Positions 2,777 through 26,348 of a stretch of DNA of 64,000 nucleotides are shown in pieces; within the stretch, counting starts at the first letter, position 1, and the number at the start of each line of letters is the position of its first letter. The notes under the pieces are model-generated. The model saw only the letters and a list, made by a program, of their open reading frames with translations. It had not been told where the DNA came from and did no database searches. The stretch comes from Thermoanaerobacterales bacterium. GTDB taxonomy: Bacteria; Bacillota; Thermosediminibacteria; Thermosediminibacterales; Tepidanaerobacteraceae. The translations under genes were made by a program, and so were the position numbers. The stretch covers positions 1-64,000 of the forward strand of contig DUMA01000017.1 of NCBI GenBank assembly GCA_012840135.1, given 5' to 3'.

Positions 2777-3118
2777 GCAGGGTAGGGCCTCCCCAGTTCC
2801 GTAATCTACTGTAACCTCGTACCGTCTCCCCTACGCTGGAGGATTCCTCTGTGTTGCATCCAAGTTCTTTACACATTCCATGGGCTTCGCCCGTACGCCA
2901 GAGGCTCGCCATCCTCTGTTCTCCTATATGGGTTTTCTAACAGCGCTGCAAGCTTGCTTTAGTTACGGTCTGAAGTCTTGCATATTCAGGGCGCTCTGAC
3001 CGTATCATTTCTGACACAACCAGCCCTGAAGCTAACCGGCCCCTTGGCGGCTACCGGTACCGGACTTTCACCGGCAAGTAAATTGCGGCTTTGCTGGGCA
3101 TGCGGCACGCGGCGCACT

Positions 3119-21809: not shown

Positions 21810-23012
21810 TTAATGAATGTTTGTCACCTGTCCGGCCACGACGGTGGCAATCTCGTTGGGGTTGCCGTCGCTAAATCTGAATACGTACGACATGGGCAGG
21901 AGTTCTATGTCCTGCACGAAATTCGTCCATGAACCTCCACCGGACTTGTAGAAAGATACGCACTTTCCGCTATCCGAGTGAACTTTGCCGGTCTGGAAGG
22001 TTATAACAGGATGGTCTGCAATATTATATGAAATTCCGTTAGTGGTAGCGTTTTTATAACTCATCTGGAAGTAATAATCATACGGCAAAAGCTCTGCCTT
22101 GACCTCACCGTTTTCATCGGTCGTGCCCAGTGCCCTGTAGCTGCCGTCCGTGGGGCCTGGATAATCCGGCGCATAGCTCACATATGCCACTGCACCTGGT
22201 ATCGGCTGGCCGTCACTGCCGACCAGCTTTACGGTTACCGGAGCAGTCCCGAATACGAAAAACGACTGATTCTGGATATTCTGATTAACTGTCCTGGTAT
22301 ATCCTCTATAGGTAATTTGGACGTGGGTGGTGGTCAGGTTGGGCGGAAGGATCGACCCTATGCTGCCACTGCTGTCGGTAGTGCCCAGAGAAACCCACTT
22401 CTGGCCGTTCCAGTAGCTGAAATACGCTCCTTCCAGCGGACTTCCCAGACTGTCCATGATCATGACCGTGGTCTTATTCGTTTGAACCGCATTCAGCAGC
22501 AAATCGCATGTCAAACTATTATTCTGGTATGTATCACCGGCCAGCTCATCCATGTGAATATCAACAGTCATGCTTGTAACAGCATCAGGTGCCAGTTTTT
22601 GTTCAAGTGTGAAAAAGCCTTTTGAATTGACGAACAGGTCCGAAAGCCTTCCCGTATACACTGTGGTACCGTCAAATTTGACTTCTATTTCCAGCATCCC
22701 TGCCAGTTCCAGATTTCCTTCAGGATTTGCGGCGCTTATCCTGTAAATTTTGAGCGGCAGGGTTCCCATATTTTTCAGCTCCACGGGGCCCAATGTCCTG
22801 GACTCGTTAGGCTGCATGTTCTCAAGGTTCAGAGTGGCAAACTTCTCCTTTTCGAAGGTGCCGTCGATTTTTCCGCCAAGGCGCAGGGTACCCGTTACGA
22901 ATGTATTCTCATTGCTTTCGGCTCGACTGGTAAACCATGCCATGGTGCCCATTCCCGCCAGACCAAAGATCAATATCACACTGAGGGCGGCTAAAATAAA
23001 TCTTTTTTTCAC
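21810..23012 (-). CDS. SipW-dependent secreted protein with Ig/CNA-B-like repeats
   Basis: 400 residues, GTG start. The N-terminal signal (FILAALSVILIFGLAGMGTM, then AWFTSRAESNENTFVTGTL) is of the SipW-dependent type. Residues ~30-175 form a camelysin/TasA-like domain (THMDE-like HMDELAGDTYQNN). Two consecutive beta-sandwich modules follow (starting near TTVMIMDSLGSPLEGAYFSY and APVTVKLVGSDGQPIPGAVA), each with the G-x-P-x-x-G-A start and DSSG/DENG turn of CNA-B or carboxypeptidase-regulatory folds. Likely a surface adhesin or minor fibre subunit. Confidence 0.8.
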   Translation of the reverse strand: MKKRFILAALSVILIFGLAGMGTMAWFTSRAESNENTFVTGTLRLGGKIDGTFEKEKFATLNLENMQPNESRTLGPVELKNMGTLPLKIYRISAANPEGNLELAGMLEIEVKFDGTTVYTGRLSDLFVNSKGFFTLEQKLAPDAVTSMTVDIHMDELAGDTYQNNSLTCDLLLNAVQTNKTTVMIMDSLGSPLEGAYFSYWNGQKWVSLGTTDSSGSIGSILPPNLTTTHVQITYRGYTRTVNQNIQNQSFFVFGTAPVTVKLVGSDGQPIPGAVAYVSYAPDYPGPTDGSYRALGTTDENGEVKAELLPYDYYFQMSYKNATTNGISYNIADHPVITFQTGKVHSDSGKCVSFYKSGGGSWTNFVQDIELLPMSYVFRFSDGNPNEIATVVAGQVTNIH

Positions 23013-23184: not shown

Positions 23185-23943
23185 TTACTGCTTTGCGATC
23201 TGTGCGTTCAACCAGGCAAGGTGATTCGTAAGACCGGCGTATTCAGGATGCCGATTGTCCAGAGTTTCAAGGGCACCGAGGTCGATCTGCGTGGCATCCA
23301 CGGCGTAAGAAATGTTGATGGGGTTGATGCCTTGTGCATCGGCCTGATACTCATTGCCGGCATTGGGTGCGAAGCCGAGAACGAAAGTGAATTTATACTT
23401 GCTGCCGGGCTTCAGAGCTCCCATCTGAACTCCCGGACCGGCCCCCATGGCGTTGGCTTCTAAAAAGTTTTTAAGTGTAATTACTCCTAAATCATCATCG
23501 ATAAGAGTATTGTAATATGAACTATAATCTCCTGCTCCTACGCCATCTTTAATAAATTCATCAGCGTTTTCCCATGTTCCACCCTCTTTAAGGAATTCCA
23601 TCTTCGCATATTTGATATAAATGGCTTCCGCAAGTTTGGTTGTTCCGTTCTCAACCGCGGGTGTAACTCTGAAGCCGCCAAACCAGGCAAGATTCAATGA
23701 ACCTGTATTTTCGATAACTAAAGACACTTCATTGGTGACATCTCCCGGGGCCATATTGCCAATGTTTCCAAGATTTGTAAAACCGCTCATGCCATTTTCA
23801 TTGAGCTTTAATGTCCCGGCGGTGAAGGTGTTATTTTGACTGGTTGCACTGCTTGTGAACCATGCAAAAGTCCCGAATCCGATTCCGAAGGCCAGAAGGC
23901 CGATGAGCACAAGGCTGATAATGATGTTTCTTCTCATTTTCAT
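23185..23943 (-). CDS. TasA/camelysin-family fibre-forming protein
   Basis: 252 residues. The N-terminus is a SipW-dependent signal (LIGLLAFGIGFGTFAWFTSS), followed by the typical NNTFTAGTLKLNENG start of the mature camelysin/TasA domain; the single domain fills the rest and ends in an Asp-rich DATQIDLGAL region. Members of the family (TasA of Bacillus, camelysin) form amyloid-like or donor-strand fibres in biofilms; some have been called M73 peptidases. GGAGG allows initiation at 23943 or at the second ATG, 23937. It lies directly behind sipW and is probably the main fibre subunit. Confidence 0.85.
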   Translation of the reverse strand: MKMRRNIIISLVLIGLLAFGIGFGTFAWFTSSATSQNNTFTAGTLKLNENGMSGFTNLGNIGNMAPGDVTNEVSLVIENTGSLNLAWFGGFRVTPAVENGTTKLAEAIYIKYAKMEFLKEGGTWENADEFIKDGVGAGDYSSYYNTLIDDDLGVITLKNFLEANAMGAGPGVQMGALKPGSKYKFTFVLGFAPNAGNEYQADAQGINPINISYAVDATQIDLGALETLDNRHPEYAGLTNHLAWLNAQIAKQ

Positions 23944-24137: not shown

Positions 24138-24737
24138 TTACAATTTCATGTTGCCTTCCGATTGACCACCATTTTGTGCTGCATCGGCGTTCTGTTTCTT
24201 TTTTTCGTTTTCTTCCTTTGACAGTTCATTGAGTATGTTTTTAATCTCGCCGGCAATCAGCAGCAATCCCGGAAATACGATCATCGCAATAAATCCTTTC
24301 GGCGTCCTGACGAACCTGCCTATGTATCCTGCATAAGGTATTTTGAATACCATGGAACCTGCAACCCTGTCCGGAGTCACCAAATCGGGGTCTTCGGTAT
24401 TGTTGGCATCTCCCTTCGTCCTGAAAGCCAGGAGGCCATCCTTCCGGATTACTTCCACCACCCGGTGGGTGACGAGTGTCTTTTCATTGATACGATATGT
24501 TATTACATCTCCCACCTTGATATTCTCCGGCATTAATTCCTTCACCACAATCATGTCTCCGGGCTCAAGAAAAGGGCTCATGCTGCCGGAAAGCACCGTT
24601 AACGGCTTATATCCCATGATCGAAGCCGCCCTGTTCGGCTCCATCCTGGACTGGTATATCAGGAAAAAGGAACACGCCACTGTGAGCATAAGCAAAACTG
24701 TCACTATGCTGTTCATCCATTTTAATGCGGTCTTCAT
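24138..24737 (-). CDS. sipW: SipW-type (ER-type) signal peptidase I
   Basis: 199 residues. N-terminal membrane anchor (~9-28), S26B catalytic core with Ser52 in VLSGSMSPFLEPGD and His91 in TLVTHRVVEV; the His in place of Lys marks the ER/SipW type as opposed to LepB. A C-terminal membrane helix (~145-165) and a charged tail follow. SipW enzymes are dedicated to processing TasA/TapA-like precursors, and three genes downstream have matching signals. GAGGAGG precedes the ATG. The first gene of the operon, directly under the c-di-GMP-II riboswitch. Confidence 0.93.
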   Translation of the reverse strand: MKTALKWMNSIVTVLLMLTVACSFFLIYQSRMEPNRAASIMGYKPLTVLSGSMSPFLEPGDMIVVKELMPENIKVGDVITYRINEKTLVTHRVVEVIRKDGLLAFRTKGDANNTEDPDLVTPDRVAGSMVFKIPYAGYIGRFVRTPKGFIAMIVFPGLLLIAGEIKNILNELSKEENEKKKQNADAAQNGGQSEGNMKL

Positions 24738-24838
24738 GCGGACCTCCTCATATTCTTTACCTGATTTTTGATTCTTAAGTATATATATCCATCAAATCCA
24801 TTTATTATGTATCATTTTATAAAAGTAGTATATTTAAC

Positions 24839-24940
24839 AAAAAAACCCAATCTTAAAAAAGATCGGGTCGGTTGCACCACTGACTCGGCTTGATTCCAAG
24901 GTGCCCTAAATACGGAACAAGCGTCATTATCTCCCTCGAA
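24839..24940 (-). promoter_or_regulatory. c-di-GMP-II riboswitch with overlapping terminator upstream of sipW
   Basis: On the minus strand the sequence contains GATAATGA, TATTTAGGGCACC, a stem GCTTGTTCC/GGAATCAAGC, and GTGGTGCAACCGACC. The GGCACC loop can pair with GGTGC as the conserved pseudoknot. These blocks match, in order, the c-di-GMP-II (class II) aptamer as known from Clostridium acetobutylicum and C. difficile. The 3' side of the aptamer (GACCCGATC) overlaps a terminator (CCCGATCTT/AAGATTGGG then T7 at 24839-24845). Pairing of GACC in the aptamer or in the terminator would be mutually exclusive, a transcriptional switch most simply read as ON with c-di-GMP. A TATAGT -10-like element lies near 24972; no clear -35. 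Confidence 0.9.
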
Positions 24941-25040
24941 CACCAATATTATATTCATCATAATATAATACTATACCATGACCAGAGAAAAGTATGTCGT
25001 AAAAGGGCTGTCGAATAAAATTTTTTTCTACAAATAATTT

Positions 25041-25128
25041 AACCCAATCTATCTAAATTAGATTGGGTCGGTTGCACCACTGACTCAGTATGTTCTAAAG
25101 ATTTAAAGTGACAAAATAAAAAAATCCT
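25041..25128 (-). promoter_or_regulatory. Degenerate second c-di-GMP-II element at the 3' end of the transglutaminase gene
   Basis: The block GAGTCAGTGGTGCAACC followed by GACCCAATCT and an AGATTGGG hairpin is nearly identical to the riboswitch at 24839-24940. The 5' half is decayed: GTCACT stands where GGGCACC is needed for the pseudoknot, and the start of the alignable region runs into the transglutaminase stop codon. The hairpin lacks a good T-tract. Probably a duplicated remnant that now acts, if at all, as a weak terminator. Confidence 0.75.
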
Positions 25129-25968
25129 TTAATATTCCTCAATCTTCCTGTGGGTGTCTTCAAAGTCATTGTTATCAAAATAGTCCTTTGCCTCTACGGC
25201 TCCAAAAGTAGTATCCATATTTATCCACCGTTTTTCTTCGGAGCTGTAAAACTCGTTCCATGCATGAAGGCCCTGGAAGGCGCCCAACTTTCCTTCCCCT
25301 TTTACAACTTTGACTCTCACCCCGGCAGCCCGGCCCAGGGCGGCTGTCAAAGCCGCATAGTCGTAGCATACACCTTTTTTTGTCTTCAGGGTGTTCAAAG
25401 CGCCGTACGTGTTGTCATAATCCCCATTCAGATGTTTTTCATATTTTTTATAATCATAGTTTATATTTGCCGTCACCCAGTCATAGATAGCTTTCATTTT
25501 TTCCGCATCGGTCTTTTTATTTTCCGCAAGTTTTTCCGCAAGACTCGTTATTTCCGGAGCATCGCTTTCGATTTCTTTTGTAGGCACGGAGAACCTGTCC
25601 ACCTCTTGAGTATTTTTTACCGTCACCGAAGGACCGTAGCTGTATTTTCTGTCGTACTCGTGGACCATAACGGTTATGGTGTAGGAGCCTTCCCCCTGGA
25701 CCAGCCACAATTGAGAGTCAAAATTTCCATCAACCAGCGGCACATCGTACCATGTCTGACTGTCATCTTTTTTTACCATGATTTTTATCTTTTCTTTTGA
25801 TGTGCTGCCGGCAATATGGACCTTTCCTGGCACCTCGGCAGGGGGCTTTACGAGTGATACACCATTTTTTTCTATGTAAACGTCGCTCTTTGCAAAAGCC
25901 GCATTCATATTGAGGAATATCAGGCACGCCAGTGCCATGGCGAAAAGCCCCGTCAGGCTTTTTTTCAT
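25129..25968 (-). CDS. Secreted transglutaminase-like protein
   Basis: 279 residues from the ATG at 25968 (MKKSLTGLFAM), behind GGGGGA; upstream in-frame codons overlap the riboswitch and are not used. Signal peptide ~1-26. An Ig-like N-terminal half (~30-130) is followed by a transglutaminase core: Cys in KKGVCYDYAALTAALGRAAG, His in GLHAWNEFY and Asp in WINMDTTFG, the full catalytic triad. Such proteins can cross-link or hydrolyse Gln/Lys peptides outside the cell. Beside the fibre operon and under two c-di-GMP-I riboswitches, a matrix-modifying role is the best guess. Confidence 0.85.
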   Translation of the reverse strand: MKKSLTGLFAMALACLIFLNMNAAFAKSDVYIEKNGVSLVKPPAEVPGKVHIAGSTSKEKIKIMVKKDDSQTWYDVPLVDGNFDSQLWLVQGEGSYTITVMVHEYDRKYSYGPSVTVKNTQEVDRFSVPTKEIESDAPEITSLAEKLAENKKTDAEKMKAIYDWVTANINYDYKKYEKHLNGDYDNTYGALNTLKTKKGVCYDYAALTAALGRAAGVRVKVVKGEGKLGAFQGLHAWNEFYSSEEKRWINMDTTFGAVEAKDYFDNNDFEDTHRKIEEY

Positions 25969-25986
25969 TTTGAAGTCCCCCTTTTT

Positions 25987-26067
25987 CGGTAGCCCGGCCG
26001 TCATAGCAATGCGCGCTTTAGACCCGTGGCTTTGCGTCTCCGGCTTTTGCCGGATTTGCCCTTATCG
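25987..26067 (-). promoter_or_regulatory. c-di-GMP-I (GEMM) riboswitch, gene-proximal copy
   Basis: The minus strand reads GATAAGGGCAAATCCGGC-aaa-GCCGGAGACGCAAAGCC, then ACGGGTCTAAAG, ATGACGGCCGGGCTACCG. The elements GGCAAA, the P2 hairpin, GACGCAAAGCC and the tetraloop receptor-type P3 are the class I c-di-GMP signature. It ends 18 bp before the ATG, and the ribosome site GGGGGA follows directly, so translational control of the transglutaminase gene is likely. Confidence 0.92.
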
Positions 26068-26111
26068 AAAGGGAAATACCCGCTGCGAAAAGTCTTTAAA
26101 ACTTGGAGATT

Positions 26112-26144
26112 AAAAAAGCCCCTGCCGGCAATGCCGGAGAGGCC
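26112..26144 (-). terminator. Terminator between the two c-di-GMP-I aptamers
   Basis: Minus strand GCCTCTCCGGCA/TGCCGGCAGGGGC followed by TTTTTT. It lies downstream of the first aptamer, so that aptamer probably works by transcription termination while the second acts at the ribosome site. Confidence 0.8.
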
Positions 26145-26163
26145 TGTCCAATTTTCAGGAACT

Positions 26164-26254
26164 AAAAAAGCCTTCGGCAACCCGGCTGCCATAGTCTTCA
26201 GACTTTAGGCCCGCAGCTTTGCGTCCCCGCCTTTCGGCGGGTTTGCCTTTATCG
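26164..26254 (-). promoter_or_regulatory. c-di-GMP-I (GEMM) riboswitch, promoter-proximal copy
   Basis: The minus strand reads GATAAAGGCAAACCCGCC-gaaa-GGCGGGGACGCAAAGC, then TGCGGGCCTAAAG, ATGGCAGCCGGGTTGCCG. It contains the canonical GAAA tetraloop in P2, unlike the second copy, and all class I landmarks. The aptamer end GCCGAAGGC runs straight into TTTTTT (26164-26169), with the larger terminator at 26112 just after. Tandem with the copy at 25987, with 107 bp between them. Confidence 0.93.
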
Positions 26255-26348
26255 GTCAATTGAAATTATTCTATTGATTTTTATGTTCGTTTTTTATATT
26301 CGACACTTTTTTTGATTTTCCTCCTATATTGCTGCAACCTTAAAAAAA

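Follow-up and report, generated by a model that had tools for sequence, protein, structure and literature searches.

The gene for a secreted transglutaminase-fold protein in the 64,000-nt stretch of DNA analysed here (the window) is preceded by two c-di-GMP-I aptamers in tandem. From the sequence of this leader and of its relatives we propose, with a probability of about two in three, that they form a bi-mechanism OFF switch lying next to a c-di-GMP-II riboswitch of opposite polarity. The first-pass annotation of this region had suggested different platforms for the two aptamers, transcription first and translation second, and the anatomy of the leader and the comparison with relatives both support this. 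Aptamers, hairpins, complementarities, gene order and conservation were read directly from the sequence. The close set of relatives comprises ten loci found by similarity to the window protein (49-75% identical in alignment), and the comparison of platforms covered approximately 25 related leaders.

The tandem c-di-GMP-I riboswitches noticed in the first pass are confirmed as two full-length cmscan matches to RF03167 (c-di-GMP-I-GGC), both above its gathering score of 59. Aptamer 1, the promoter-proximal one (26172-26256, minus strand), scores 78.2 bits (E 7e-17) and aptamer 2, the gene-proximal one (25984-26069, minus strand), 72.2 bits (E 3.8e-15); they are on the same strand and 102 nt apart. 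Direct reading shows that the c-di-GMP contact bases G, A and C, equivalent to Vc2 G20, A47 and C92, are kept in both. Neither aptamer consequently carries the G-to-A substitution associated with cGAMP, and specificity for that ligand was ruled out, the contact bases being of the c-di-GMP type. The P2 loops do differ, as the first-pass annotation had stated, being GAAA in aptamer 1 and AAAA, on a 6-bp stem, in aptamer 2; the latter had been read one base short, as AAA. This AAAA is the sole departure from GAAA among 18 aligned aptamers. Since the closest relative, L044, has GAAA at the equivalent of aptamer 2, the loop is private to the window genome and no conserved design feature, and the idea that it marks a conserved difference in affinity was dropped. 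A promoter scan gave no promoter-like site on the minus strand between the two aptamers. Upstream of aptamer 1 no clear sigma-A promoter was found at 26320-26270 (minus strand), a sigma-D type promoter was considered and was not convincing, and a different sigma factor is possibly used. At the equivalent position, promoters of the TTGANN-17-TATAAT type are present in several other relatives. The same 26320-26270 stretch holds a block, GGAAAATCAAAAA..GTGTCGAATAT, that the window has in common with L044.

The transglutaminase-fold gene itself (25129-25968, minus strand) specifies a protein of 279 amino acids that begins like a signal peptide and contains an N-terminal beta domain as well as a Transglut_core domain (PF01841, E 2.4e-23), in which C201, H235 and D252 are invariant in an alignment of 11 such proteins. 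The start listed for its open reading frame at 26004 falls inside aptamer 2 and is unlikely. Behind the gene, on the same strand, are two c-di-GMP-II elements which were missing from the first-pass annotation. The nearer one (25041-25095; 35.6 bits, under the cut-off) is a remnant consisting of a 3' half and a terminator, the promoter and 5' half having been deleted relative to L044, as the alignment of the two shows; the terminator left behind may now serve simply to end transcription of the transglutaminase gene. The other is an aptamer at 24859-24943, which precedes sipW. Its score in the window is modest, at 44.2 bits for RF03169 (cut-off 40) and 51.2 bits, just under the cut-off of 53.5, for RF01786; the counterpart in L044, where both class II aptamers are complete, reaches 57.3 bits. 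The genes that follow, again on the minus strand, encode a SipW-type signal peptidase (24138-24737; TIGR02228 above cut-off, NF046067 at E 6.6e-43, below cut-off), a TasA/camelysin-like SipW-dependent protein (23185-23943) and a second SipW-dependent TasA-like protein (21810-23012), the last two both matching PF12389 and TIGR04088.

The terminator of the complete class II element (24838-24869, minus strand) uses the P1 3' strand of the aptamer as its 5' arm. This overlap, typically of the sequence ACCGACCC, is present in the window, twice in L044, and in L046, L050 and L051, so that ligand should prevent termination and the element should be an ON switch. The order class I aptamer, transglutaminase gene, class II aptamer recurs in four related genomes (L044, L046, L050 and L051), and the unit behind the class II aptamer comprises SipW and a SipW-dependent protein in L046, a two-component system and then SipW in L051, and a two-component system and then short secreted proteins in L050. 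A terminator-like hairpin stands behind the transglutaminase-fold gene in L046 and L050, and a consensus promoter lies ahead of the first class II aptamer in L044; the transglutaminase and class II units thus look separately transcribed. A different arrangement of class II aptamers was met in Geosporobacter ferrireducens (L065, 1501-1906, minus strand), where a c-di-GMP-I aptamer and a short ORF are followed by two of them, only 3 nt apart. The 3' strand of P1 in the first could pair with the 5' strand of P1 in the second, and the 3' strand of P1 in the second with the Shine-Dalgarno of a gene for a repeat-rich surface protein; by these complementarities the two look like coupled class II aptamers that share a single translational ON platform. 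Near the left end of the window, on the minus strand, there are also pieces of a group II intron (D1-D4 models at 2257-2374 and 2958-3077; Intron_gpII at 644-719).

A search of the PDB with a model of the transglutaminase-fold protein returned a putative cysteine protease, TglA of S. pyogenes and transglutaminases, and its matches include pseudomurein endoisopeptidase and LapG (Foldseek 4u65_E, E 1.5e-4, TM 0.58 over the target). The LapG family profile (Peptidase_C93) gave no match, Transglut_core and DUF553 being the only Pfam families found at E up to 0.001. As these folds mix enzyme types, the fold alone cannot separate a protease from a cross-linker, and the activity and substrate given below are predictions. 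SipW/TasA-like genes adjoin the transglutaminase-fold gene in the window, L044 and L046, and SipW does so in L051; sortases occur near it in eight distant loci, two of them with LPXTG-type neighbours. Together with the OFF polarity argued for below, which speaks for a protein needed while no matrix is built, the sortase and LPXTG-type neighbours lead us to favour a matrix-releasing protease. The protein would most likely release or remodel matrix in motile cells and be silenced during matrix building. That it is instead a cross-linker or a peptidoglycan enzyme of motile cells, unrelated to the adjoining matrix genes, is possible but on balance doubtful: the fold search returns transglutaminases and an endoisopeptidase besides proteases, and the neighbours of the gene differ in L047-L049, but the repeated SipW/TasA-like and sortase neighbours just described speak against it. 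This alternative concerns the purpose of the protein and not the anatomy of the riboswitches. On the favoured reading, this uncharacterised family of secreted transglutaminase-fold proteins would serve in matrix dispersal and be silenced by c-di-GMP during the formation of SipW/TasA-type fibres.

Within the close set the gene has two aptamers in front of it in L044, L046, L047, L048, L049 and L053, and one in L045, L050, L051 and L052. The nearest relative, L044, comes from a genome of the window's own family, Tepidanaerobacteraceae; in a genus mate (G001) the transglutaminase-fold protein finds only a weak match, and a search of the order of Anaerosolibacter gave no new close homologues. Among 20 further, more distant loci from other Bacillota, c-di-GMP-I aptamers lie near the transglutaminase-fold gene in 17, nearly always directly upstream, and eight of the 20 have at least two upstream. 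Apparently only the tail of aptamer 2 is left in L045, and the single aptamer of L052 (3878-3986) looks as if the 5' portion of one copy had been fused, at a repeated GACGCAAAGC, to the 3' portion of the other. By sequence, these two cases look like visible loss of tandem aptamers through recombination.

The strong terminator reported behind the first aptamer is present (26112-26143, minus strand), consisting of a hairpin of approximately -18 kcal/mol (26143-26118) and a six-U tract (26117-26112). The 3' strand of aptamer 1 can pair with the 5' arm of this terminator in a candidate antiterminator (26132-26179, minus strand), UGCCG (26179-26175) with CGGCA (26136-26132) and GGCUU (26172-26168) with AGGCC (26145-26141). 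Equivalent terminators are found behind aptamer 1 in L044, L046-L049 and L053, and behind the single aptamer of L045. When transcript snapshots ending before the terminator 3' arm were folded, the terminator loop or 5' arm paired with the aptamer 3' strand in L045-L049 and L053 at a core probability of about 1.0; in L045, for example, GGUAAUCC of the terminator region pairs with GGGUUGCC of the aptamer. The pairing was absent from folds of the same six leaders in which the aptamer was enforced. Compared with shuffled sequences the duplex had p=0.0005 (L045), 0.002 (L053), 0.027 (L047), 0.039 (L049), 0.04 (L046), 0.061 (window), 0.077 (L048) and 0.19 (L044, the nearest relative and the weakest case). 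The bases of the two partners change in concert, from GCCG/CGGC, as in the window and in L044, to GCCAAA/UUUGGU in L047. Since the antiterminator is only moderate in the window (pairing probability 0.3-0.5), the case for the polarity of aptamer 1 draws on the relatives. With them, the sequence supports a transcriptional OFF platform in which ligand would hold the 3' strand and the terminator would form.

A further U run (26169-26164) lies almost directly behind aptamer 1 and could be a weak proximal terminator of the ON type, as has been proposed for Bc3-5 (PMC4759541). Aptamer 1 would then be an ON switch whose ligand-free P3 and P1 3' strands form a terminator ending at this run, with the distal hairpin as a back-up or leaky, and expression would need aptamer 1 bound and aptamer 2 unbound, that is, a narrow band of c-di-GMP. 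The ligand-free fold of the transcript up to the U run does put a helix beside it, and other tandem c-di-GMP-I elements have a published ON mechanism (PMC4759541). However, the candidate hairpin is weak (approximately -5 kcal/mol), the U run is absent from L044, and what the relatives conserve is the distal terminator with the OFF-type antiterminator. We consider an ON switch improbable, and the U run was rejected as the main terminator of aptamer 1.

Aptamer 2 runs straight into the Shine-Dalgarno GGGGG (25981-25977), 8 nt before the ATG at 25968, and is thus directly before the ribosome site of the transglutaminase gene as first described; this leaves no room for a terminator in the second unit. 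The Shine-Dalgarno is contained in the 3' strand (CGAAAAAGGGGG; 25977-25988, minus strand) of an extension of P1, the 5' strand of which (CCCUUUCG; 26066-26073, minus strand) is the flank of the aptamer. The extension amounts to -10.1 kcal/mol, compared with -5.3 kcal/mol for an alternative hairpin between the flank and J1/2 of the aptamer (CCCUU/AAGGG, 26073-26059). With the aptamer formed, flank and Shine-Dalgarno pair at a probability of 0.96 in the window, and the others of the close set have values of 0.39-0.99. All seven gene-proximal aptamers of that set have a conserved 5' flank, CCYUU(U), with which the Shine-Dalgarno pairs and which none of the seven upstream aptamers has; the 3' sequence of these close gene-proximal aptamers is CGAAAAAGGGGG or a near variant. 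Shuffling within single loci gave weak values for the extension (p 0.02-0.46) and is not decisive, since nearly every C/U-rich flank can pair with a Shine-Dalgarno so rich in G. The strongest argument for a real translational OFF platform is that the enclosure recurs with different bases in distant loci with a single aptamer: in L024 AAAUAAGCUUUC with GGGGAGUUUAUUU encloses the Shine-Dalgarno (p=0.01-0.02), and similar extensions occur in L021 (p~0.01) and L025 (p 0.02), with weaker ones in L016, L018, L019 and L022; enclosure was also seen in L056. The sequences support a translational OFF platform for aptamer 2, acting through a P1 extension that would cover the Shine-Dalgarno.

In equilibrium folds of the window the Shine-Dalgarno is mostly paired whether or not the aptamer is enforced, so that switching must be kinetic or small. 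Such low accessibility in either state would also be expected if both aptamers were ordinary, pseudo-cooperative duplicates and the second platform added nothing. In at least one distant tandem (L055) each aptamer is followed by a terminator, so that not every tandem is bi-mechanism. We hold this explanation to be unlikely for the window, for the extension enclosing the Shine-Dalgarno, built of other bases, is the only visible platform in the single-aptamer relatives. It is more doubtful still that one of the two is in decay and binds little ligand, the likeliest candidate being aptamer 2, whose AAAA loop stands against GAAA in the other 17: decay and loss of copies do occur in the family (the L045 remnant, the L052 fusion and the class II remnant of the window), but the core contacts and helices of aptamer 2 are all intact at 72 bits and its P1 extension is kept.

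In the proposed bi-mechanism OFF switch, the 3' strand of ligand-free aptamer 1 would pair with the 5' arm of the terminator and transcription would continue; with c-di-GMP bound, this strand would be held in the aptamer, the terminator would form and transcription would stop. On transcripts that pass, ligand-bound aptamer 2 would close the extended P1 over the Shine-Dalgarno and block translation, so that high c-di-GMP would lock the gene twice and expression would occur only when c-di-GMP is low. At the class II aptamer before sipW and the TasA-like genes, ligand would close P1 with the terminator 5' arm and let transcription continue. Ligand binding and polarity in cells being predicted, one signal would swap two adjacent surface functions in opposite directions. 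The series arrangement behind the "AND-type response" suggested in the first pass stands and the wording does not: because both units look OFF, the gene would be made only if neither aptamer is bound, which amounts to two locks in series for one ligand. A steeper response from the two units, as PMC9481103 proposes for tandem riboswitches, is plausible. Overall, this is a real and conserved pair, probably a bi-mechanism OFF switch, beside a probable ON riboswitch of another class.

The genome which carries the window (G000, 99% complete) has ten c-di-GMP-I and three c-di-GMP-II matches, the remnant included. Other class I aptamers lie ahead of cheW, flagellar rod genes, a chemotaxis receptor and an HD-domain gene, and the class II aptamer outside the transglutaminase/sipW cluster precedes a gene for a pilB-type ATPase. 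This division appears to match the pattern in C. difficile, where functional class I riboswitches are OFF and class II are ON (PMC6366702). At two further places in the same genome, L009 (C2:1597-1684) and L010 (C26:1416-1481), the proteins encoded near c-di-GMP-I aptamers are uncharacterised secreted ones or a sigma-like one.

The arrangement of the aptamers is not in itself new, since tandem c-di-GMP-I riboswitches before COG1305 transglutaminase-like genes are already reported from Bacillota, as a statistical enrichment with 94% doublets and 6% triplets (PMC12452182). Aptamer class, doublet arrangement and gene family are those of the window. The main text of that paper, however, is without platform anatomy and suggests that both ligands promote transcription, whereas we predict two OFF units acting at different levels, with an adjoining class II unit in addition. 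OFF control is thereby predicted for a family whose tandem c-di-GMP-I link had been read as promoting transcription. The bi-mechanism principle is known from SAM-II/SAM-V tandems, in which the first unit stops transcription and the second controls access of the ribosome (PMC9481103); the window shares the two levels and the single ligand, with a different ligand and aptamer class. The same paper lists c-di-GMP-I doublets as pseudo-cooperative, not assigning them to the bi-mechanism type, and expects the latter to be under-detected; the window would be a named c-di-GMP example. The triple-tandem c-di-GMP-I element Bc3-5 of Bacillus thuringiensis (PMC4759541) likewise combines several units in a single leader, and each has a platform of its own, but they are ON switches and all have terminators. 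Literature searches, with most subscription journals outside their reach, found no account of bi-mechanism control of such a tandem or of reciprocal class II control, and nothing relevant on c-di-GMP riboswitches with SipW or on GEMM with transglutaminase.

The closest parallel in logic is from C. difficile, in which the protease ZmpI/PPEP-1 (CD630_28300) is under a class I OFF switch and its adhesin substrates CD630_28310 and CD630_32460 are under class II ON switches (PMC6366702). As in the window, a secreted enzyme and surface proteins are oppositely controlled by two non-homologous riboswitch classes, and ZmpI and one adhesin have consecutive gene numbers. The parts differ, a zinc metalloprotease and sortase-anchored adhesins there, a transglutaminase-fold protein and SipW/TasA-like proteins here with polarity taken from anatomy alone, and one class I riboswitch is described for zmpI versus two in the window. 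LapG of Pseudomonas and Legionella, a protein with the transglutaminase-like cysteine protease fold which is under c-di-GMP control in the context of adhesion, resembles the window protein at the level of the fold and belongs to a different Pfam family. LapG is held by the protein receptor LapD, not by riboswitches. We suggest tentatively, as one possible view of the whole locus, a conserved biofilm toggle of Clostridia in which tandem class I riboswitches lock, at two levels, a matrix-releasing protease of the transglutaminase fold while a class II riboswitch switches on a SipW/TasA-type matrix, an independent arrival, with unrelated parts, at the logic of PPEP-1 and its adhesins and of LapG and LapA.
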